DNA from: Bifidobacterium asteroides
GTDB lineage: Bacteria; Actinomycetota; Actinomycetes; Actinomycetales; Bifidobacteriaceae
Reading direction: 5' to 3'
Assembly (NCBI RefSeq): GCF_003202755.1
Contig: NZ_QGLK01000004.1
Location: forward strand, 248,001-312,000
DNA: 64,000 nt
Within the stretch, counting starts at the first letter, position 1, and every line of letters begins with the position of its first letter. The notes under the pieces were generated by a model, which ran no database searches, was not told the origin of the DNA, and was given only the letters and a program-made list of their open reading frames with translations. Positions 46,672 through 58,372 of this stretch are shown here, piece by piece. A program made the position numbers and the translations under genes.

Positions 46672-46687
46672 GCCATGGTTAATAAAA

Positions 46688-46721
46688 GTTGGGGCTCCAT
46701 CCTTTACGATGGAGCCCCAAC
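46688..46721. terminator. Terminator after glnA
   Basis: A perfect 14-bp stem (GTTGGGGCTCCATC at 46688-46701 with 46708-46721) encloses a six-base loop. It lies between glnA (+) and the small membrane gene (-) and can serve both. Confidence 0.85.
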
Positions 46722-46760
46722 TGTATCCGATTACAGTTACATCAATCCAGTTTGAAAGCC

Positions 46761-47213
46761 TTATCTGCCGGTATTCTTACGCACCCTAAAGAAAGAGGTG
46801 ACAACGGCCAATACAGAGGCCAGCGCGAAAAGGACTATGGCAATCAAGGCACTCTGCAAATCAGCCATATTCTGCGCATTTTGCTCGAAAGTCATGATGC
46901 TGGCAAAGCCATTGATCCGACTTGTCAGAAAACTCACCATACTCAGTACGAGCAGTACGGCTGCTAAGCAAAGAGCTATATCGCGAGCCAAGGCTAACCA
47001 TCTGCTGCCTTGATAGACCTGCCCGGAGACAAGGACGAAAATCTCTGACGCCATAGCTACGATGGCACAAGCCAAGACACTTGGCTCGACTCCCAAATTT
47101 TGGAAGTAAGCTGTTTTCCCGTTAATTTCAGCATAAATCAAGGCAGCCAAAGTGACAATGAAGGTTAGGGTGCCCATATAGAAACCGATTGATTGACGCT
47201 TGAAAAAATCCAT
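46761..47213 (-). CDS. Small four-helix membrane protein next to GH3
   Basis: This 150-residue protein has four hydrophobic segments (FYMGTLTFIVTLAALIYAEI, SVLACAIVAMASEIFVLVSG, IALCLAAVLLVLSMVSFLT, ALIAIVLFALASVLAVVTSF). AAAGGTGG before ATG 47213 gives the start, 12 bases after the GH3 stop, so the two are cotranscribed and probably coupled. The family is not recognised. It could anchor, assemble or export the membrane-bound GH3 enzyme; that is inferred from position only. Confidence 0.75.
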   Translation of the reverse strand: MDFFKRQSIGFYMGTLTFIVTLAALIYAEINGKTAYFQNLGVEPSVLACAIVAMASEIFVLVSGQVYQGSRWLALARDIALCLAAVLLVLSMVSFLTSRINGFASIMTFEQNAQNMADLQSALIAIVLFALASVLAVVTSFFRVRKNTGR

Positions 47214-47225
47214 GATCTCCACCTT

Positions 47226-50200
47226 TCAGATTGACCTGTAATAACGGCGACGACTGACCATGTACATGACCAAGCTCAAAAGGGTCAGCAGAGCCGTACC
47301 CGCCGTCGACCACATCAGAACTTTGTCGTACCAAGTGCGGATAGTCTCCAAATGTGACTTCGCATCCAAACCGTCCATTACATTGGAGTTCGCATAGGCG
47401 TAATTCTGCCAAGTCATGTTCCTTTTCAAGTCACTCATGAGCTGGGCGTCCTTGCTGACATTCTTCAGGTTCCACTCTGGCCACTTTCTTGATACGGCAT
47501 CCAGGCTGTCATTTCCGGTACTGGTCAGCATGGTTACTCCGTTATGGGCAGAAGCCGGTAGATTTTGATATTCGGTATCCATGATGAAGTCCTGGGAAAG
47601 CACACCTTTAAAGCCCCACTCCTTACGGAGTATGTTCATGAGCAGTCCAGTATGGGCATTGACAGCCACCACACCAATCCGGTTAAATCCGGTCATCATA
47701 CCCAAGGCTCCGGCATCTTCGACTATGCTCTGGTTAGCTCTAAGCTCGCCCTCACGCGCCTTCTGCTCAGTCATGAAAACAGCTATGCCCGTGCGATTGA
47801 TCTCTGTGTCGTTGAAAGCAAAATGCTTGGGCGCCAAAATACAGCCGTACTTTCTGGCTTGGCGGACGGAGGAAGCCGCTTGATAGGCAGTCAGCATAGG
47901 ATCCTCGGAATAGTATTCATGGTTCCGGGCATTGTACGCGGTGCGATGAAGATTGGTGCCGACACCCCAGATAAGCGCAGTGTTGGCCCAGATCGAATAA
48001 TTACCCAGGGCCTTACCCCACTGACCTGCCAAGTCCTTGCTGAATGTCTGGCCGATAACGGTTTCCACGGCCATGACCCCCATGGTATAGGAAAGGTTGT
48101 GATCCGTCCCGTCAACCGCATAAGGATCACCTGATTGCTTGTCCTTGTTGGCATACTGCCCTAAAGGATAAGAAGCAAATCCATTGGGACCGTCGTTCTG
48201 AACTACTTCAGGTGAGCTGATGGAACGAATGGGCTTGGTCGAAGTTCCTCCGAAAGCGGTCCTGATCATGGCTTCCGGCAAGGTCAACTGATCCATGAGC
48301 TTGGACCATCGCTTATCTTTGATGTCTGTAACACCCTTCAGCTGGGCCAAGGTCATCCCATTATTGGCACCGAACTTTACCGACTTAGGATCGCCTTGGG
48401 ATTTTATCTGGTAAGTCTGATTGGTCAGACCCTGCTTGAGCATACTGGAGCTCGCCGTCAACCCCTTATAAGTTTTGGGCCAAGTGCTTTCCCAATCGCT
48501 TCTGCTCAGGTTAGTGACCGAACCTGGCTTGTAGAAGTTCAAGTCTGCATTCGCTAGCTGGTTGGTCACTTTGGCACCTGTCTTGCTGACTGCGTAACGA
48601 CTGGTGTCGCGCTGCGCCAGATTCCAGCTTGCCACCTGATCCATCATGCCATCTGCAGATGCGCCCTTGGCCTTAAGGACATTTTCCACAGCTTGGTGGG
48701 CATCATCTCCCAAAGCGAAGTAATAGTCCCCAGCATCCAGGACATAACCCCCTTTACGTCCGTGATTGCCAAGAGTGGAATCCCAGCTGGCCATATACTG
48801 GGCATCCGCTTTGATCGTTAAGGTCTGCGATTGACCGGGCTGAAGCAAATCGGTTTTGCCATAGTCCAACAACTGGACCTCGGATTTTTCAACATGATGC
48901 TCACGGTCATAGTCGGTATAAGGAGTGCTTACGTAGAACTGTGCAACATCCTTGCCGGCCACCTTACCAGTGTTAGTCACTTGGATGCGCGCGGTTACTG
49001 TGCCCTCTTTCATATCTACTGCTACTTGGTCCAATGTTTGACGAAAGCTGGTGTAAGAGAGACCATAACCGAACGGATAGGTTACTTCCCTGTTGTAATC
49101 CCAGGCATCGCCAGTAGTCGAACCAACCTTGGCATCTGCTTTGCCCTGACCCAGCACCTTATCGGCATATCTGGTCTCATAATACTTATAGCCGGTGTAG
49201 ATGCCTTCAGCTTCGACGATTTCGGAGTTAATGCTGTGGGCAGGATCCGCATTAGTCCAACTGTAGTTTCCGTAGTTGTTGACTGCCGGAGCGCTGGTGT
49301 TGTTGGCAGCCCAGGTATCTGTCAAGCGTCCGGATGGATTCTCTCTGCCACAGAGAAGATCAGCAACACCATTGAAGCCATAAGCGCCTGGCAGGCCCAC
49401 CTGCATGATGGCGTCTACTCCATCTTGATTTGCCAGCTCTTGAATCTGCATGGGATTAACGCTATTGATAAGAATGATCACCTTGCCATGATTGGTCTGC
49501 TTGGCTTTGACTGCAGCGTCGATCAACTGGCGCTCATCGTCCGAAAGTCCCAAGGGATCACGTTGATCGAGGTGCTGTTTGCTGTCCACCCCGTCCTTGC
49601 CTGGCGTATAGTTTCTATTCTCTCCCGAAGCCCTTGCCAAGGTTACAATCATTACATTGTCCTTATCCAAACTCGACCGCCAATCAGGCCGTGCCTGATC
49701 CATCTGGGATTGGGAGAGCTCCTTGCTAGAGAACCGTTCACCGATAAGGGGCGCCGTAATACGTGTGACCTTGCTTTTATGACCGAAATTATTGATTTCT
49801 GTCGAGAATTCATCTTTTTTAGACTGATAAAGCTGCTGAAGCGTTGAGTTGATGTCAAACTGCCTCGAGCGAAGAGCGGCTATCAAGTCAACCGTGTCGG
49901 CATCCGTACCCTTGTTCATACTCACAGAAGAACCCATGTCGCCGCCCAGGACCGGGTAATAGCTCGAGAATCCCAAAAGGGAGACTCGATGGGTTTCTTT
50001 CTCCGTCAAGGGCAAAGCTCCGTTGTTTTTTAAGAGAACAGAGCCCTCTGCGCTCATTCGTCTACCCAAATCAGCCACCGATGTCAACAATTCCTTAGTA
50101 CTTGAGTAATCAGAACGGTAGGTGTAAGCCTTCCTGGCATCCTTGCCCTGGGCTGTGACGAAACGTGAGCTTTTGGTTCCCAGAAACTTATCAATATCCG

Positions 50201-50306
50201 TGCGAAAACCATTGACGGCCCCTGTAACTGAAAGAGACAAGGCCAGCAATGATGCAAAAACCGTTGTCATCCCCCTCCAGGCCTGTATACGACGATCATT
50301 TCTCAT
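47226..50306 (-). CDS. Membrane-anchored GH3 glycosidase with permuted domain order
   Basis: This 1,026-residue glycoside hydrolase of family 3 is probably a beta-glucosidase type. The alpha/beta sandwich domain comes first (GRRMSAEGSVLLKNNGALPL), then a fibronectin III-like part (YGLSYTSFRQTLDQVAVDMK). The TIM barrel comes last, with KHFAFNDTEINR and the nucleophile region GVLSQDFIMD (Asp near residue 906). This is the reverse of the standard GH3 order and is known for a subset of the family. A signal anchor lies at about residues 15-35 (TVFASLLALSLSVTG) and a second helix at 1000-1020 (GTALLTLLSLVMYMV), followed by a basic tail. GAGGAGG before ATG 50306. It is likely an outward-facing enzyme. 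Confidence 0.9.
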   Translation of the reverse strand: MRNDRRIQAWRGMTTVFASLLALSLSVTGAVNGFRTDIDKFLGTKSSRFVTAQGKDARKAYTYRSDYSSTKELLTSVADLGRRMSAEGSVLLKNNGALPLTEKETHRVSLLGFSSYYPVLGGDMGSSVSMNKGTDADTVDLIAALRSRQFDINSTLQQLYQSKKDEFSTEINNFGHKSKVTRITAPLIGERFSSKELSQSQMDQARPDWRSSLDKDNVMIVTLARASGENRNYTPGKDGVDSKQHLDQRDPLGLSDDERQLIDAAVKAKQTNHGKVIILINSVNPMQIQELANQDGVDAIMQVGLPGAYGFNGVADLLCGRENPSGRLTDTWAANNTSAPAVNNYGNYSWTNADPAHSINSEIVEAEGIYTGYKYYETRYADKVLGQGKADAKVGSTTGDAWDYNREVTYPFGYGLSYTSFRQTLDQVAVDMKEGTVTARIQVTNTGKVAGKDVAQFYVSTPYTDYDREHHVEKSEVQLLDYGKTDLLQPGQSQTLTIKADAQYMASWDSTLGNHGRKGGYVLDAGDYYFALGDDAHQAVENVLKAKGASADGMMDQVASWNLAQRDTSRYAVSKTGAKVTNQLANADLNFYKPGSVTNLSRSDWESTWPKTYKGLTASSSMLKQGLTNQTYQIKSQGDPKSVKFGANNGMTLAQLKGVTDIKDKRWSKLMDQLTLPEAMIRTAFGGTSTKPIRSISSPEVVQNDGPNGFASYPLGQYANKDKQSGDPYAVDGTDHNLSYTMGVMAVETVIGQTFSKDLAGQWGKALGNYSIWANTALIWGVGTNLHRTAYNARNHEYYSEDPMLTAYQAASSVRQARKYGCILAPKHFAFNDTEINRTGIAVFMTEQKAREGELRANQSIVEDAGALGMMTGFNRIGVVAVNAHTGLLMNILRKEWGFKGVLSQDFIMDTEYQNLPASAHNGVTMLTSTGNDSLDAVSRKWPEWNLKNVSKDAQLMSDLKRNMTWQNYAYANSNVMDGLDAKSHLETIRTWYDKVLMWSTAGTALLTLLSLVMYMVSRRRYYRSI

Positions 50307-50384
50307 GACACAACCTCCTCGTTGTTTGTGCGACTTTGATGCTTGATGAACAAGCACCGAGTCTTGCTTCTCTACCCCCTGCTG

Positions 50385-52094
50385 CTACTGCTCAAGATGG
50401 AGCTTGCGCTTCCAACTCAGCAGAATTTTTTGTCTATCCTGATACTTGGATTCCTCCTTTTCGAAGTCCAGCCCTTTCCTGACGCATCGTTGGCGTAGTT
50501 CTTCCTGTCTTACGGATTCGGCCTTTCTATCCGCCTCATCCTGTTCCCGTTGCAGACGGACGGAAGGGTCCAACCACTCTCCACCTGCCGCCAAAACCTT
50601 CTCTTTCTGATGCCTGAGAATCAAGGCATGGTCCTCGTCCGAATGGCGTTCCACATTGAGAAAAATCATGAGAACCGCGATGGCCGCATAACAGACCAAT
50701 TCGAAACCTATGTAGCAGACAACCAGCACTGACTGGACTGTTCTGTTCTGTCGAGGCAGAGAAGGGTCATAACCTGACGCGGTGAGAAGCATATTGATCA
50801 GACCGCTGCCTAAGCCAGTCATTCCAACCATGATCGCCCCATAGACGGCCATGGTGAATCCATCCGAACGGAACCCGTTTTTAGCCTCCAAGTGGTCCAG
50901 TACATCGGAAAGAAGAGCCAAAGTCACATACATGGCAGGAATGGAGCCGACCCCCTTCAAGGCGACACCTATGCAGACCATTTTCAGGCTATGAACGTCA
51001 ATAAGGCTGAATGATCCTCCGATGACGGCAATGACCATCCCCCAGGCCACAGCTTTCCTCTTGCCCAGCTTATTGGCGATCGGCCAAGCCAGGACCATGC
51101 CAATAGCAGTGGGGATGCCGCCGATCAGACCAAGAGCGCTCATAGCCCCGCCTGCGGCTCCCTCCCCGGTCACATCGTTGAACATCCACCGGCTGTAGTA
51201 GCTCATAGAACCGTTTTTGACCATGCCGGAAAGCTGGAATAGAAGGAAATATAGGATGATGACCCACCAGAAAGGTTCAGTCATGCAGGCTTTGACCTGT
51301 CTTGCCATGGGTAACTTTGTCTCTTTGATCTTGAGCTTGAGATTCTCTTCGGTTATCCGTTCACGGGTGAAGTAGTACTCGCAGAGAATACCGAGAAAAG
51401 TGATCAGACAGAGGACTAAAATTACCACCTTCCAGTGATTGTATGAGGCCTGTGTATCAATGACCCCCCCATGATCTACGAACAGAAAACCCTGAAGGAG
51501 GACCGGCACCAGTATGCTGGCGCCGATACCAACTGCAGCCACGCCTGCTGCGTTGGACAAAGTGGCCAGGAGCCCCCGCTGATTGGTGTTGCGGGTAGAA
51601 AGATTGACCATAGAACTGTGAGCCGTATAGAACATAGGGTATGCCAACGCGTAGTAAAGGTTATAGGAGACGCAAATCCAGACCATCTGCATCGTCGGCG
51701 AGGAGTTCCTAGGAGTCATGAAAAGGCCGATGATGGCAACCATAAGAATCGGAGCCGACAAAAGAAGATAAGGCCTTGCCTTGCCCTGAGGGGTTCTGGT
51801 CAAATCCATCATTCGTCCCACCAGAAGATTACCCAGAACCACGACTATGACGGAGACCATTGGCATAAAGGTTGCAAAGAGACCGAATTTGCTCTTATCG
51901 GTCCAGTGGAGAATATCCGAATAGTACCTGTTCAGATAAGAGGCGAAGATGGCATTCGAGATAAGGGCGCACAATGGTCCTACAAGATAACCGAGAACCA
52001 TTTCCTTGATCTGGACATTGGCCGAGGTGATGCGGGTGCGCAACCAGCTCGAAGAAAAGAACTGTTCTAATAGATTTATTTTCTGCTGAGCCAT
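50385..52094 (-). CDS. GPH-family glycoside:cation symporter
   Basis: This 569-residue transporter has about 12 helices. The GPH (MelB/LacS-like) pattern is seen in VGRMMDLTRTPQGKARPYLL and in YALAYPMFYTAHSSMVNLST. A long charged C-terminal tail (residues about 490-569, rich in Glu, Arg and Lys) may be regulatory. Its ATG overlaps the end of the GH78 gene by one base, so it is translated with it. It probably imports rhamnosyl glycosides or rhamnose for the cytosolic rhamnosidase. Confidence 0.88.
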   Translation of the reverse strand: MAQQKINLLEQFFSSSWLRTRITSANVQIKEMVLGYLVGPLCALISNAIFASYLNRYYSDILHWTDKSKFGLFATFMPMVSVIVVVLGNLLVGRMMDLTRTPQGKARPYLLLSAPILMVAIIGLFMTPRNSSPTMQMVWICVSYNLYYALAYPMFYTAHSSMVNLSTRNTNQRGLLATLSNAAGVAAVGIGASILVPVLLQGFLFVDHGGVIDTQASYNHWKVVILVLCLITFLGILCEYYFTRERITEENLKLKIKETKLPMARQVKACMTEPFWWVIILYFLLFQLSGMVKNGSMSYYSRWMFNDVTGEGAAGGAMSALGLIGGIPTAIGMVLAWPIANKLGKRKAVAWGMVIAVIGGSFSLIDVHSLKMVCIGVALKGVGSIPAMYVTLALLSDVLDHLEAKNGFRSDGFTMAVYGAIMVGMTGLGSGLINMLLTASGYDPSLPRQNRTVQSVLVVCYIGFELVCYAAIAVLMIFLNVERHSDEDHALILRHQKEKVLAAGGEWLDPSVRLQREQDEADRKAESVRQEELRQRCVRKGLDFEKEESKYQDRQKILLSWKRKLHLEQ

Positions 52095-54700
52095 CAGTTT
52101 TTGTCCTCTTCTTGCCTTGTTCCCAAGTTGATGGTCTGATTAACCTGGTGATCACCAGGACAGAGATCTTGTGTCTGCCCCCCCTGCAATTCCAGGCGAC
52201 AACGTGTCCCTATAGGAACATGGACACGAACGGCAAGAAGGGAATCCTCAACCTTCCAGGAGGCACTAATAGTGCCGTAGGGAGTCTGAACGTGTCCCTT
52301 GGCCCAGTTCAGGCTGGAGTGAATAATGGGTTTAAATCTGAAGGTACGATATCCTGGATCGATCATCTCAATTCCGAGTACGCGACGGTAGAGGAAGTCT
52401 CCCACGGCACCTGATGCATAATGGTTGTAGGAAATCATCAGATCAGTGCCGTCATCACCGATAGGACACTGACCGGATTCGTCAAGGCCATCCCAGCGTT
52501 CCCATATCGTTGTGGCGCCCATTTTCACCTCGTAAAGCCAAGATGGACAGGTATCGTTCAACAGCATCCGATACGCAGCATCTACTTGTCCGTTATCAGC
52601 CAGAGCAAAGAGGATATAAGGCGTCCCAGGAAATCCGGTGCCGATTCGGTACCCATTCTCTTTTACCAGCTCGGCCAGGCGAGCTGCTGCTTCTTTTCTT
52701 TCTTCCCCTTTGAACATGTGCAAGTAGAGAGGGAGGACATACGCTGTCTGGAATTCTTTTTTCAGATGCCCCCGTCCATCAGTAAAAACCGATATGTAAG
52801 CATCAGCCACCTTGTCGGCCAACAGGTCGTACTCCTGTGCCTCACGATCCTTGCCTAGCTCTCTTGCCACTTTTGCCAGGGTCCGGCTGGTGTTGTTGAG
52901 ACTTGCTGTGGCTGTCCAAGGACTCCGGGCCTGCCATTGAGACATTTTGGGAAGGTCAGGTGCCACCCAATCGCCGAAATGAACCACTGCTGGGGTGTGC
53001 CAGATGTATCGCCTCTTACCTATACCCCAAAGCCCAGCCCAGAACCGGCAGGCACGAACATAGCGTTGCATTACCGGATACATCCGTTCCAGGAGATCAA
53101 TATTGCCTCGAGCCTGATATTCGGCCCACGGTACCAAGACACAGGCATCTCCCCACCAGTCAACGGCCATCGTGGGCATCGTGTCCGGGAATCCGAACCC
53201 CTGCGCTGGCACTGTGTTCGGTATTCCGCCAGTCCGCGCTTGCTCATCGGCTACATCCTTCAGCCATTTGTCAAGGAATCGACTCATATCGAAGTTGTAG
53301 CAGGCTGTTGGAGCGAAGACTGCGATATCGCCTGTCCACCCCATACGTTCGTCCCTTTGGGGACAGTCTGTTGGTATATCCATCAAGTTGGATTTGGCAC
53401 CCCAGACAATATTGCTCTGCAAACGGTTCAGCCTGGGTTCTGAACATGAAAAATCCCCGGTCACAGGCATATCTGAGTAGAGAGCCAGACCTTCAACTTG
53501 GATCCTGCCAGCTGATATGCCGCTGACGGAAACGTACCTGAACCCCATATATGTAAAGCGAGGGGAATAAACCTGGCGGCCCTGGCGACAGATATAGGTC
53601 AAGGTCGCTTTGGCCGTACGAAGGAACCGGGTGTTGAGGCTGCCATCCGGGTTGAGGATTTCGGAGTGACGGACCTTGATGATCTGCCCTTCTTTCCCAT
53701 CGATGGTCAGCCTAACCACACCCGCAAAATTTTGACCCATATCATAAACCAGCTCATTAGAGGAGAGTCTGGATACGCTAATAGGCTTCAAGACTTCGTG
53801 GGGCCGAACCGGACTACCATAGTCAGCAACCAGAAGAGGATGGATTTTCGGCTTCTCAATAGCTGCAGGGTGCCAGTCAGGACCCATTTGCGACTCACTC
53901 AAATCGATCCTGGCATCGTAGGTCTCACCGTCATACAGGTCAGCCATCCGGCAGGGACCGTTCAAAGTGACTGACCAATCCTTATCAGTGCCAATGATCT
54001 GACTGGTGCCATCTTCGAACTCAATCCGAAGCTCGGCCAAGAGCGCCTGACGGTCTGCGCTAATCCTGTTTTTCCTAGTAAAGGAAAAGGATCCTACAGC
54101 CCACCCACCGGCCACCACGGCTGTGATCTCCTTCTGACCGCCACCGGCCAGAAGATTTGTGACATCGTAAGTCTGGTACTGGAGCTTGGAGGCATAGGAT
54201 GTGAAGCCGGGGGCGAAATACCGATCGGAGACCTCCTTGCCATTTATGGTGAAGTCGTAGATACCCAAAGCAGTGGTATAAAGACGTGCCCTGATGACCT
54301 TCCCCTCCTTCAAGGAGCAAACTCTCCGAAAAACCATAGGGGAAGGCGAAACCTTCTTTTCATGAAACCTATAGGTGCCGTCCGTGATCCATTTGGCCTG
54401 CCAAGGGGTTCCCATGCGTCCGGTTTCGAATTGGGCAACGGCAAAGGCAGACTGACCGAGCGTATCCCTGACGTTCAAGTCGAGGTTGTAGCTGGTGAAG
54501 GGCTTTAAATCAGGACCCCCATATCTGATAGACATATCATCGCCAGGATTACCCACCCATGAATTCACCTTGAGGGTGGCTGATTCCATGCGATCATCCT
54601 GACAGTCACTGTCAAGATTGAAAGTGAAAAGGGGATGAACTGAATCAGTGACGCAGCCCTCGGTCATATTCTCAACAGCAAGACGGCCCACCGTCAGCAT
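52094..54700 (-). CDS. Alpha-L-rhamnosidase (GH78)
   Basis: This 868-residue enzyme has N-terminal beta domains (MVFRRVCSLKEG, GIYDFTINGKEVSDRYFAPG; VYDMGQNFAGVVRLTIDGKE) and an (alpha/alpha)6 barrel. The barrel has DCPQRDERMGWTGDIAVFAP, the GH78 acid/base region, and GATTIWERWDGLDESGQ with the partner Glu; a C-terminal beta domain follows. No signal peptide is present, so it acts in the cytosol on imported substrate. It removes terminal alpha-L-rhamnose from plant glycosides such as flavonoid rutinosides. It is the first enzyme gene after the sensor kinase, 154 bases away, and overlaps the symporter gene. Confidence 0.93.
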   Translation of the reverse strand: MLTVGRLAVENMTEGCVTDSVHPLFTFNLDSDCQDDRMESATLKVNSWVGNPGDDMSIRYGGPDLKPFTSYNLDLNVRDTLGQSAFAVAQFETGRMGTPWQAKWITDGTYRFHEKKVSPSPMVFRRVCSLKEGKVIRARLYTTALGIYDFTINGKEVSDRYFAPGFTSYASKLQYQTYDVTNLLAGGGQKEITAVVAGGWAVGSFSFTRKNRISADRQALLAELRIEFEDGTSQIIGTDKDWSVTLNGPCRMADLYDGETYDARIDLSESQMGPDWHPAAIEKPKIHPLLVADYGSPVRPHEVLKPISVSRLSSNELVYDMGQNFAGVVRLTIDGKEGQIIKVRHSEILNPDGSLNTRFLRTAKATLTYICRQGRQVYSPRFTYMGFRYVSVSGISAGRIQVEGLALYSDMPVTGDFSCSEPRLNRLQSNIVWGAKSNLMDIPTDCPQRDERMGWTGDIAVFAPTACYNFDMSRFLDKWLKDVADEQARTGGIPNTVPAQGFGFPDTMPTMAVDWWGDACVLVPWAEYQARGNIDLLERMYPVMQRYVRACRFWAGLWGIGKRRYIWHTPAVVHFGDWVAPDLPKMSQWQARSPWTATASLNNTSRTLAKVARELGKDREAQEYDLLADKVADAYISVFTDGRGHLKKEFQTAYVLPLYLHMFKGEERKEAAARLAELVKENGYRIGTGFPGTPYILFALADNGQVDAAYRMLLNDTCPSWLYEVKMGATTIWERWDGLDESGQCPIGDDGTDLMISYNHYASGAVGDFLYRRVLGIEMIDPGYRTFRFKPIIHSSLNWAKGHVQTPYGTISASWKVEDSLLAVRVHVPIGTRCRLELQGGQTQDLCPGDHQVNQTINLGTRQEEDKN

Positions 54701-54854
54701 CTTTGCCTCTTCTCGATTACTACGGCGAGAGGGTCACCTTAAGCTGCCCGCGGTCTCGTCGTTTCTTTGTCGAATACCCTCTAAGGCTCTCGCATGAGAA
54801 GTGAGCGACCAAGCTGCATGACACGAAAGGTTCTTTTAGATACACGAAATGAAT

Positions 54855-56171
54855 TCAGGGTACAGGAAGAAGGATATTAAGTCGGAAAATCCCCTGCGAG
54901 TCATCAACCACCATATACCCCTTATAACGCGTCACGATCATACGCATGGAACGCATGCCAAACCCGTGATAGCGCGCATCAGATTTGGTGGTGACCGGCA
55001 GATCGTCTTTGAAAATCAGCCTTCCCTTGTAGGGGTTCTCCAAGTGGATCACCGCCATTCCTTTGTCAGGATGCACAATCAACCTGATGTACTTATCTGT
55101 CATGACATCCAGGGAATCCGTAGCCTCTATGGCGTTGTCCATGGCATTGGCAAACAGGGAATATACGTCCCCCTGCCTCATAAAGTCCAGGCAAGAACCA
55201 TCTATCATACGGTCGAATTGAATGCCACGCTTTTGACAGAGCAGGGCTTTACCAGCCAACAGTATTTCCAGCGCTTCATTCCCAGCCTTGACTTTGGTGT
55301 CATAGACATCAATCAAAGTATTAAGGTCCTTGATCTCATCCTTATCCAAGGCAGTTCCCAGATCGTTGATCTCTTTCTTGATGTCATGGGCTTTGATGTT
55401 GATGAGATCGACTGTTTCTTTGTCGTGCTGCATCTGCTGCTCCTGCTGTGCCAGAAGACGCTGCAGCATGAGCCCATCCTGCTCGGCCGCCCTGCGACCA
55501 GATATCTCATCAAGCAAGACCAGAATGAAAATGCACGTGATCAAACGGGTGAGTGTGAACATCAGATAAGCCAGAACTGGGATGCGGGTGTTTCCTACAA
55601 GTTCATCGAAAAGACAGGCAAAGACGTTTACACACAACATCACGCCAACAAGTATGAGCGGAATGTGCTTGCTGACCGTGCTGGGTGGTGCATGTTCGAC
55701 TATGGAACGCGCAAAGACCCTATATACGACAGGCAGGAGAGCCAGGAAGATCACCGGATAAACCAAATAGGACAGCATGTCGCCACGCATATCTGTGAAG
55801 CTTTTCAGCAGGGAAACAATGATCTGGGCGCCGCAATAGATCAAATGCTGAGTAGCTACGCCCGCCACCAGGTAAAAGACAGCCTGTCCCGTGCTCAAGC
55901 ACAGGCATATCTTCATGGCAGCCAGACACATAGCATAGAAAACGGTGACCCTAAGGATGAGGGTATAAGGGTTCTGATGTACAAGTTCTGCCCAAACAAG
56001 GCAGATGATCAACATGAGCGTCAATGATAGACCCATCCGGAAAAAGATCGGAGGACGACGATCCAACTTCCATGTATAGAGACCGATTGAGAGAATCAGC
56101 TCAAATAAGAATCCCGACGACTGGAAGAACCAAAGAACGGTCTCAATCGGGTCTTCAGATAACATGGTCAT
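54855..56171 (-). CDS. GHKL sensor histidine kinase (AgrC-like)
   Basis: This 438-residue protein has six or seven transmembrane segments within about the first 215 residues. A coiled coil with the likely phospho-acceptor His follows (HDKETVDLINIKAHDIKKEI), then a GHKL ATPase domain with N box LFANAMDNAIEATDSL and G box HGFGMRSMRMIVTRYKG. This architecture belongs to AgrC-type kinases that pair with LytTR regulators and often sense peptides. It overlaps the regulator gene by 17 bases. The signal is unknown. Confidence 0.9.
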   Translation of the reverse strand: MTMLSEDPIETVLWFFQSSGFLFELILSIGLYTWKLDRRPPIFFRMGLSLTLMLIICLVWAELVHQNPYTLILRVTVFYAMCLAAMKICLCLSTGQAVFYLVAGVATQHLIYCGAQIIVSLLKSFTDMRGDMLSYLVYPVIFLALLPVVYRVFARSIVEHAPPSTVSKHIPLILVGVMLCVNVFACLFDELVGNTRIPVLAYLMFTLTRLITCIFILVLLDEISGRRAAEQDGLMLQRLLAQQEQQMQHDKETVDLINIKAHDIKKEINDLGTALDKDEIKDLNTLIDVYDTKVKAGNEALEILLAGKALLCQKRGIQFDRMIDGSCLDFMRQGDVYSLFANAMDNAIEATDSLDVMTDKYIRLIVHPDKGMAVIHLENPYKGRLIFKDDLPVTTKSDARYHGFGMRSMRMIVTRYKGYMVVDDSQGIFRLNILLPVP

Positions 56172-56868
56172 TGCCGATGCAAGTGACGAGTTGAGCCATG
56201 AAAGTCTTACGGTAGACTCGGCCGATAGTTAAAACAGACCCATTTAGGAGGGTGATCTCCTCCCCCTTTACCAGACGTATATAACGCTGATTGACTAGAA
56301 AGGACTTAGATGAGCGAATAAAACCATGTCCCTGGAGCATGTCTTCCACTTCTTGAAGACTGCCCACCCCATGTATCAGACCCTTGTCGGTATGGAAATC
56401 CAACTGATGGCGTCGAACCTCGATGTAGGCCAAGTCCCGCAGGAAAATACGTTGACCCTTTGACCTGTATCTTATGGTAATGGTATCAGCTTGCTGCCGA
56501 CACAGGGACACGGCCCTGTCCATTTTCCTATTGAAATCCTCTTTAGTAAAGGGTTTTACAATATAGTCTAAAGCCGAAACTTCATATCCTTTGACTGCAT
56601 ATTGAGCCATATTGGTCACGAAGATAATAATGACTTTCTGATCCATGTGCCTTATTCGCCTGGCAGCTTCGAGCCCATTCATATTGGGCAGATCAATATC
56701 CATGAAAATCAGGTCGTACCGAATCCGATACGGCTCAACTAAGGCCGTGGGCTCACGAAAATCGGTTATTTCGATCCTCGCCTTTGTCTTGTCCATGTAA
56801 TCATCCAGACAGCGGTGCAACCAGGCTGTGGCGGGCTCATCATCCTCGACAAGGGCTACCGTCAACAT
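56155..56868 (-). CDS. LytTR-family response regulator
   Basis: This 237-residue protein has a receiver domain with acidic pocket VEDDEP and phospho-acceptor D57 in LIFMDIDLPNMNG, and the conserved Lys in SALDYIVKPFTKEDF. A LytTR DNA-binding domain starts at about residue 140 (ITIRYRSKGQRIFLRDLAYI, KGLIHGVGSLQEVEDML, FIRSSKSFLVNQRYIRLV). It is transcribed before its kinase and upstream of the rhamnosidase genes. It probably activates the downstream glycoside locus or its own operon. Confidence 0.93.
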   Translation of the reverse strand: MLTVALVEDDEPATAWLHRCLDDYMDKTKARIEITDFREPTALVEPYRIRYDLIFMDIDLPNMNGLEAARRIRHMDQKVIIIFVTNMAQYAVKGYEVSALDYIVKPFTKEDFNRKMDRAVSLCRQQADTITIRYRSKGQRIFLRDLAYIEVRRHQLDFHTDKGLIHGVGSLQEVEDMLQGHGFIRSSKSFLVNQRYIRLVKGEEITLLNGSVLTIGRVYRKTFMAQLVTCIGNDHVI

Positions 56869-57025
56869 TCAGCACTCCTTCTCGACCTATCAATCCTGAG
56901 CATACAGTATGGCGTTGGAAAGTTAATGGTCGATCTTGCCGCAAATAGTCATGCCTCCGATTACCATCAACATTAATATTGTCCGTAATTATGCCTTATA
57001 TAGGGCCAAAGTCAGGGGTGGTGAA

Positions 57026-58372
57026 GTGCGCTGGCTGCGTGAGTTCATGGAGTTGCCCGTATATTTGCGAGCCATGCTCATCGTAGACCTCATGTGCAAC
57101 TTCGGCATCGGCCTGGTCATGCCCATCGAGCTGCTCTTCGCCACCCATTCCCTGGGCGCGACCATGAGCGAGGCAGCGCTCCTCGTGACCATCAGCTCTG
57201 TAGGGTCCCTGATCTCCAATCCCATCATCGGCTGGGTCTCGGACCGTCACTCCTCATGGCTGGCCATGCACACAGCCATGATCTTCTCGGTCATCGGCCC
57301 CCTGATCTTCACCATGGCCCACGACTATCGTGCGGCAGTGGCGGGAGCCTTCGTATCAGGCCTAGGGATGGGCATGCAGACCTCCTGGGCCAGCATTCTG
57401 ACGCAGATCTCCACCAGGAAGCAGCACCGAATCGTCTACGGCATCAACCAGGCCGAACTAAACCTGGGCATCGGCCTTGGAGCGGCCGTTGGCGGACTGC
57501 TGGCCGCCGGTGGTCAGGACTTTCTCTATCGGCTCGGCTTCGGCGGTAGGGCCCTGGGATTCGCCCTGCTCAGTCTGTCCCTGCTGGTCATCGAACGACA
57601 CTGGCAGCTGCGACGATTGACGGCTGAGCTCAAGGCCAAGGCGGAACAGGAGGTCGTCCAGGAATCCGTACAGTCCACCAATGCTCTGCAGGCCAGCCGA
57701 TCGGACAGCACAGAAAGCAAGACCGTCAACGGCACCTTTGGAGGGCGGACCAGCTCCCTGACCAGGGTGCTGGCCTCCATGATCCTGCTGACCCTCGGCA
57801 CCTTCTTCATGGATCTGTTCGGCTACTCCCAGTTCGACGCCGGCCTGGTCACCACCCTGATTTCGGATCCGCACATCCCACGCTGGTCTCTTTCGGTGGT
57901 GGATGTGGTCAATACCTTCTCGGTGGTCATCATGAACATCGTGCTGCTACCCCGGCTCAAAGATGCCAACCATGTGCGCCTGCTGCGCACCGTGCCGGTC
58001 TTCTGGGCTGCGGCCTGGATGATTATCGTCCTGGGCCTGCGCCTGGATTCCACCCCCGGCGCTCTGAGCGTCGCCTCCCTGGGCATCACCATCTTCGGAC
58101 TGGGCGAGGTCATGATGGGCATCTCCCAGCCGGTGGTGGCCGCTGAGCTGGCCGGACCATCGTTCAGCGGACGCATGTTCGGCCTGCTCAACACGGCCGC
58201 CTCCCTGGGCTACATCGTGGGACCCATGTTCGCCTCCTACATCCTGGCAGGCCATGAGGTCATTCCCTTCCTGGCCATGTGCGCCATCGGCCTGGTCCTG
58301 CTGGCAGTCCCCTGGTTCCTGGCCATCCCCTCGCGACAGATCACCAGCCGGAAGAGCCCGGCCGGCGTCTAG
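57026..58372 (+). CDS. MFS transporter
   Basis: This 12-helix transporter of about 448 residues has helix pair YLRAMLIVDLMCNFGIGLVM and motif A in NPIIGWVSDRHSSWLAMH. A long polar central loop (about residues 190-245 of this form) and a second half follow. I favour the GTG at 57026, preceded by AGGGGTGG, because the AT-rich upstream part looks like promoter (TATATA near 56995) rather than coding. An ATG at 56951 or TTG at 56936 would extend it by 25-30 residues. It resembles sugar or drug efflux permeases and is divergent from the LytTR regulator. The substrate is unknown. Confidence 0.85.
   Translation: MRWLREFMELPVYLRAMLIVDLMCNFGIGLVMPIELLFATHSLGATMSEAALLVTISSVGSLISNPIIGWVSDRHSSWLAMHTAMIFSVIGPLIFTMAHDYRAAVAGAFVSGLGMGMQTSWASILTQISTRKQHRIVYGINQAELNLGIGLGAAVGGLLAAGGQDFLYRLGFGGRALGFALLSLSLLVIERHWQLRRLTAELKAKAEQEVVQESVQSTNALQASRSDSTESKTVNGTFGGRTSSLTRVLASMILLTLGTFFMDLFGYSQFDAGLVTTLISDPHIPRWSLSVVDVVNTFSVVIMNIVLLPRLKDANHVRLLRTVPVFWAAAWMIIVLGLRLDSTPGALSVASLGITIFGLGEVMMGISQPVVAAELAGPSFSGRMFGLLNTAASLGYIVGPMFASYILAGHEVIPFLAMCAIGLVLLAVPWFLAIPSRQITSRKSPAGV

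Follow-up and report, generated by a model that had tools for sequence, protein, structure and literature searches.

Does a two-component system encoded directly upstream of a set of glycosidase genes control those genes, and what would it sense? The locus that raises this question lies in the window, a 64,000-nucleotide stretch of a Bifidobacterium asteroides genome. A sequence-only reading had described GH78, GPH symporter, and GH3 genes with a GHKL/LytTR pair upstream, and we found all of these where it had placed them, on the − strand. We judge, with a probability of about 0.7, that these genes form an operon that was gained horizontally and is complete in itself, with its own GHKL/LytTR switch acting on its four structural genes.

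Gene content of the locus

The locus comprises six genes, all on the − strand, from 46761 to 56868 (regulator, kinase, GH78, GPH, GH3, and four-TM protein). They and the associated features are as follows.

56155..56868, − strand: LytTR response regulator (Response_reg plus LytTR; Pfam)
54855..56171, − strand: GHKL sensor kinase resembling AgrC, with about 7 TM helices followed by DHp/CA (Pfam HATPase_c_5, motifs, structure model)
54821..54850, − strand: putative LytTR operator ATTTCGTGT-N12-CTTTCGTGT (two direct copies whose starts lie 21 bp apart)
52094..54700, − strand: GH78 alpha-L-rhamnosidase (four GH78 domains, catalytic and accessory, above curated Pfam cut-offs)
50385..52094, − strand: GPH-family (MFS_2) sugar:cation symporter (Pfam)
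47226..50306, − strand: GH3 beta-glycosidase with permuted domain order and a predicted TM anchor at each terminus (Pfam, model, sequence)
46761..47222, − strand: small four-TM protein, 153 aa (no Pfam family; downstream of many permuted GH3 genes)
46689..46720, − strand: likely operon terminator, 13-bp perfect inverted repeat then T-rich DNA (direct sequence reading)
46673..57026, no strand: acquired block between glnA and an MFS gene (comparison with relatives)

The kinase gene starts within the last bases of the regulator gene, the GH78 and GPH genes have one base in common, and the gap between GH3 and the four-TM gene is 3 bp. The operon probably ends at the hairpin and T-rich − strand tail at 46689 to 46720. 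The GH3 open frame extends from a GTG at 50357; the ATG at 50306, which has a good ribosome site, is the more likely start. NCBIfam models for alpha-rhamnosidase, GPH, and GH3 matched as well, each below its curated cut-off, and the equivalog level was not reached. A Pfam search with the four-TM protein returned no family at cut-off and only scattered weak matches. T37, R102, and N115 of this protein are invariant in 22 aligned sequences (alignment A2), and we counted 33 frames of this kind accompanying permuted GH3 genes.

GHKL/LytTR systems are well known, and AgrC-like kinases are commonly taken as peptide receptors. The H-box (KxHDxKK), N-box, and G-box of GHKL ATPases are all present in the window kinase, and the adjacent gene encodes a regulator with a receiver and a LytTR domain. 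The structure model of the kinase has seven N-terminal helices matching the TM segments, plus a kinase core. With this AgrC-like architecture the pair might sense a secreted peptide, as AgrC and ComD do, and tie cell density to glycoside use, as the sequence-only reading had hinted. A Foldseek search with the kinase model placed the cytoplasmic half of AgrC among the top matches, along with many other kinases; the two structures superposed poorly. AgrB (PF04647), however, has no match in the genome, no convincing peptide ORF adjoins the pair, and the steady neighbour of such pairs is GH3. A search of the locus for an AgrD-type precursor gave short overlapping frames only, small peptides being hard to exclude. 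We rejected Agr quorum sensing because no AgrB was found in the genome, and from these searches, which covered the Agr proteins, we regard peptide sensing in general as quite unlikely. AgrC/AgrA, SilB/SilA, and other GHKL/LytTR systems likewise combine a polytopic-sensor GHKL kinase with a LytTR regulator and direct repeats about 21 bp apart; the window locus differs from them in that no AgrB was found in its genome and no peptide gene was seen in the locus, and in its proposed target, a glycosidase/symporter operon. YpdA/YpdB and BtsS/BtsR are also LytTR two-component systems and are tied to nutrients; they have LytS-type kinases, belong to enterobacteria, and regulate transporters. None of them is known to be embedded in a glycosidase operon.

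The window GH3 differs from ordinary GH3 enzymes. Its domains run C-domain, Fn3, N-domain in one chain, the order of the permuted subfamily that has already been described (PMC5104943), and membrane helices are predicted at both ends. Its model matched 5k6m colinearly over the whole length; with a mean pLDDT of 64 (middling confidence), the model was used for this fold match only. All 10 sequences compared have the candidate catalytic residues D923 and K844-H845, and beta-glycosidase activity is predicted. GlyA1 (PDB 5k6l) and the Paenibacillus barengoltzii enzyme (5wug) share the domain order, whereas the window GH3 differs from both in its two predicted TM helices and its linked GHKL/LytTR pair. 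The words "transmembrane" and "two-component" are absent from the text of the GlyA1 paper (PMC5104943). A hydrophobic segment at both ends was found in 136 of 148 permuted GH3 frames. Open frames of 1727 to 2003 aa in three other loci (L186, L224, and L232) may hold two permuted GH3 enzymes in a single chain. GH78 has no signal peptide, TM helix, or hydrophobic segment. Since GH3 has a hydrophobic segment at each end and GH78 has none, the body of GH3 is probably outside the cell and GH78 is probably cytoplasmic.

A putative LytTR operator precedes GH78

Known LytTR sites are 9-bp repeats with 12 bp between them (PMC2766830, PMC6193735). The sequence-only reading had proposed a search for such sites in 54701 to 54854, and the search yielded a LytTR-type repeat at 54821 to 54850. 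This TTTCGTGT direct repeat is exact over 8 bp at 21-bp spacing and lies just past the kinase stop, upstream of GH78. Its layout, 9-bp half-sites some 12 bp apart in front of a presumed target gene, is that of known LytTR sites, and binding by the regulator is predicted. In a genome-wide search for the TTTCGTGT repeat, the next best matches had 3 mismatches and were equal in number to those of the reversed control. We rejected autoregulation through the same operator, as the genome contains no second site with fewer than 3 mismatches. The streptococcal LytTR Regulatory Systems (LRS) share this operator geometry and a membrane partner, which in their case is an inhibitory membrane protein in place of a kinase (PMC6193735).

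A TTYRTGA-type repeat at 21-bp spacing is present in nine syntenic loci, including the window and two without GH78; half-sites in this alignment were chosen by eye, and the second is weak in L107. We also pooled 52 non-redundant kinase-to-next-gene regions with no motif preselected. We found that 34 of them have a self-match of at least 7/9 at spacing 21 (z of about 8.7), against a mean of 8.3 and a maximum of 16 at other spacings and a maximum of 14 in block shuffles. The family set, again with no motif chosen, also favors spacing 21, and an independent, mostly Firmicutes set has a single peak there. In several single regions the best-scoring 21-bp repeat is other than the TTYRTGA-type motif. 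By eye, the half-site appears to vary by clade (TTYRTGA, CGTTC, TTTTGCC, or TTCATGC); such variation would be expected of regulators that each recognize a site of their own.

Alternatively, the pair could ride along as a passenger and regulate something else, for instance the divergently adjacent MFS gene that starts near 57026. The gap between the regulator and this gene lacks any repeat with a self-match of 8/9 or better at spacings from 20 to 23, the MFS gene sits beside glnA in 19 relatives without the block, and the pair is syntenic with GH78 and GH3 elsewhere. We rejected control of the MFS gene on the first two of these findings, and the passenger reading as a whole is very improbable.

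The six genes were gained as one block

The GC content of the block is about 50% (47000 to 57000), against 58 to 66% outside, and the borders are sharp. In the window genome, 10.35 kb (46673 to 57026) separates glnA from the MFS gene. In 19 relatives of the genus without the block, the two genes adjoin (about 200 bp apart or less), with about 200 bp of other sequence at the block site; a twentieth relative, whose contig ends at the glnA/MFS site, is outside this count. Because the flanking genes touch where the block is absent, we concluded that the pair and the enzymes arrived together. The data support horizontal gain of the six genes as a single piece with its own switch and operator. This suggests a route by which a glycoside operon can be transferred independently of host regulation.

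Among 26 other species of the genus, we found no close relative of the window kinase and no GH78 nearer than 39%. The donor thus lay elsewhere than in the genus. The nearest kinases (about 50% identical) and the nearest GH3 (about 66%) are in other genera of the family, and a Lachnospiraceae MAG carries a GH3 59% identical to that of the window.

The gene order is conserved in distant genomes

The full gene order also occurs in six other genomes of the family (G132, G042, G106, G035, G034, and G033) and, with a different kinase lineage, in two Firmicutes MAGs (L156 and L157, from Oscillospiraceae and Lachnospiraceae). In these MAGs the kinase is 22 to 24% identical to that of the window, whereas GH3 is 55 to 58% identical, which indicates that the individual kinase/regulator pair is exchangeable. 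The switch in both MAGs seems to have been swapped for a different member of its class. The pair of G091 (L110) is inverted and divergent from GH78. G128 and G125 lack GH78 and have a GH2 behind GPH; in the latter (L130), the kinase, GH2, and several GH3 genes are fragmented, by decay or sequencing error. The operator in the gap before GH78, the gain of the block as a unit, and this synteny together bear out the assignment of the pair to the sugar locus.

Proposed mechanism and substrate

According to our model, the kinase would detect a signal at the membrane, perhaps glycan derived, and phosphorylate the LytTR regulator. The regulator would then bind the direct repeat in front of GH78, with its 21-bp spacing, and presumably turn on, rather than repress, the GH78, GPH, GH3, and four-TM genes. 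Outside the cell, GH3 may trim a beta-linked sugar from a rhamnose-containing glycoside; the symporter would bring in the fragment, from which cytoplasmic GH78 would remove alpha-L-rhamnose. The gene content, unit acquisition, conserved synteny, operator geometry, and two-phylum linkage were each established by computation, and a switch acting locally on its own operon is their most economical reading.

The sequence-only reading had favored rutin-type substrates in particular, and our data do not support this. With GH78 probably inside and GH3 predicted outside, the order is wrong for terminal-rhamnose glycosides: the terminal rhamnose of rutin or naringin must go first, and as the enzyme that would remove it is predicted to be inside, import would be needed beforehand. 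A search of the genome for RhaA found none, and we rejected classical rhamnose use on this basis. The gain may therefore come from the other sugars or from a different rhamnose route.

GHKL/LytTR pairs accompany permuted GH3 genes

The sequence-only reading had called the pairing unusual. Our counts showed instead that permuted GH3 genes with membrane anchors usually have such a pair, both in the family and in Firmicutes. In eight genomes, picked for holding a match and with coordinates transcribed by hand, a LytTR gene lies within 8 kb of 40 of 51 permuted GH3 genes versus 5 of 21 ordinary ones (Fisher 2.7e-5), some of those 5 ordinary genes being immediate neighbours of a permuted GH3. All 4 LytTR genes of the window genome are within 8 kb of a permuted GH3 (0.21 expected). 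In the family's 20-kb loci plus the window, 49 of 53 kinases have a permuted GH3 within 5 kb, and kinase and GH3 distances correlate (Mantel r, 0.50; permutation maximum, 0.12); these kinases were selected by similarity to the window kinase, and both values partly reflect relatedness. When GTDB genomes were searched from GH3 first, 25 of the 37 GH3 genes with 7 kb on both sides lay no more than 6 kb from a kinase gene or a LytTR gene.

Permuted GH3 loci might remodel bacterial or host surface glycans instead of harvesting plant glycosides, with the GH78 variant as a specialized offshoot. The genus's most widespread pair adjoins a GT2 glycosyltransferase, a GtrA-like protein, and GH3 genes, L195 also has a GT2/GtrA-like set, and the lack of a RhaA match fits as well. 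The window operon, however, carries a symporter and GH78, and other members carry GH2 with GPH. We consider this account unlikely and retain the self-contained glycoside operon for the window.

A search of the open-access literature, with most subscription journals outside, for papers that connect LytTR or GHKL to Bifidobacterium or to glycosidases gave nothing relevant. Provisionally, three things are apparently undescribed: the steady link between GHKL/LytTR pairs and permuted GH3, the membrane anchors at both ends of GH3, and the operators that differ by clade. We tentatively propose, with more doubt than confidence, that in at least two phyla membrane-anchored permuted GH3 enzymes are as a rule regulated by AgrC-like GHKL/LytTR switches. 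These would read a carbohydrate or aglycone signal, not a peptide, which the anchored enzyme, perhaps together with the four-TM protein, makes at the membrane, each clade using its own half-site at the fixed 21-bp spacing. The large set of AgrC-like kinases linked to one type of glycosidase, with their predicted operators, provides candidate glycan sensors that can be tested in bacteria of the gut and rumen, and it offers a rule for regulon prediction.

Three GH3 plus GH78 neighbourhoods of the genus have no pair nearby (G010 C1:235266, G009 C7:31392, and G000 C1:196387); the last (C1:196387-205192) is a second neighbourhood of GH78 and permuted GH3. One of the five genome GH78 matches (G000:C5:157911-160148) has two in-frame stops. 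In L034 (G000:C1:6001-26000), a pair common to most species of the genus lies opposite GT2, GtrA-like, and ordinary and permuted GH3 genes, an arrangement that is perhaps the ancestral form.
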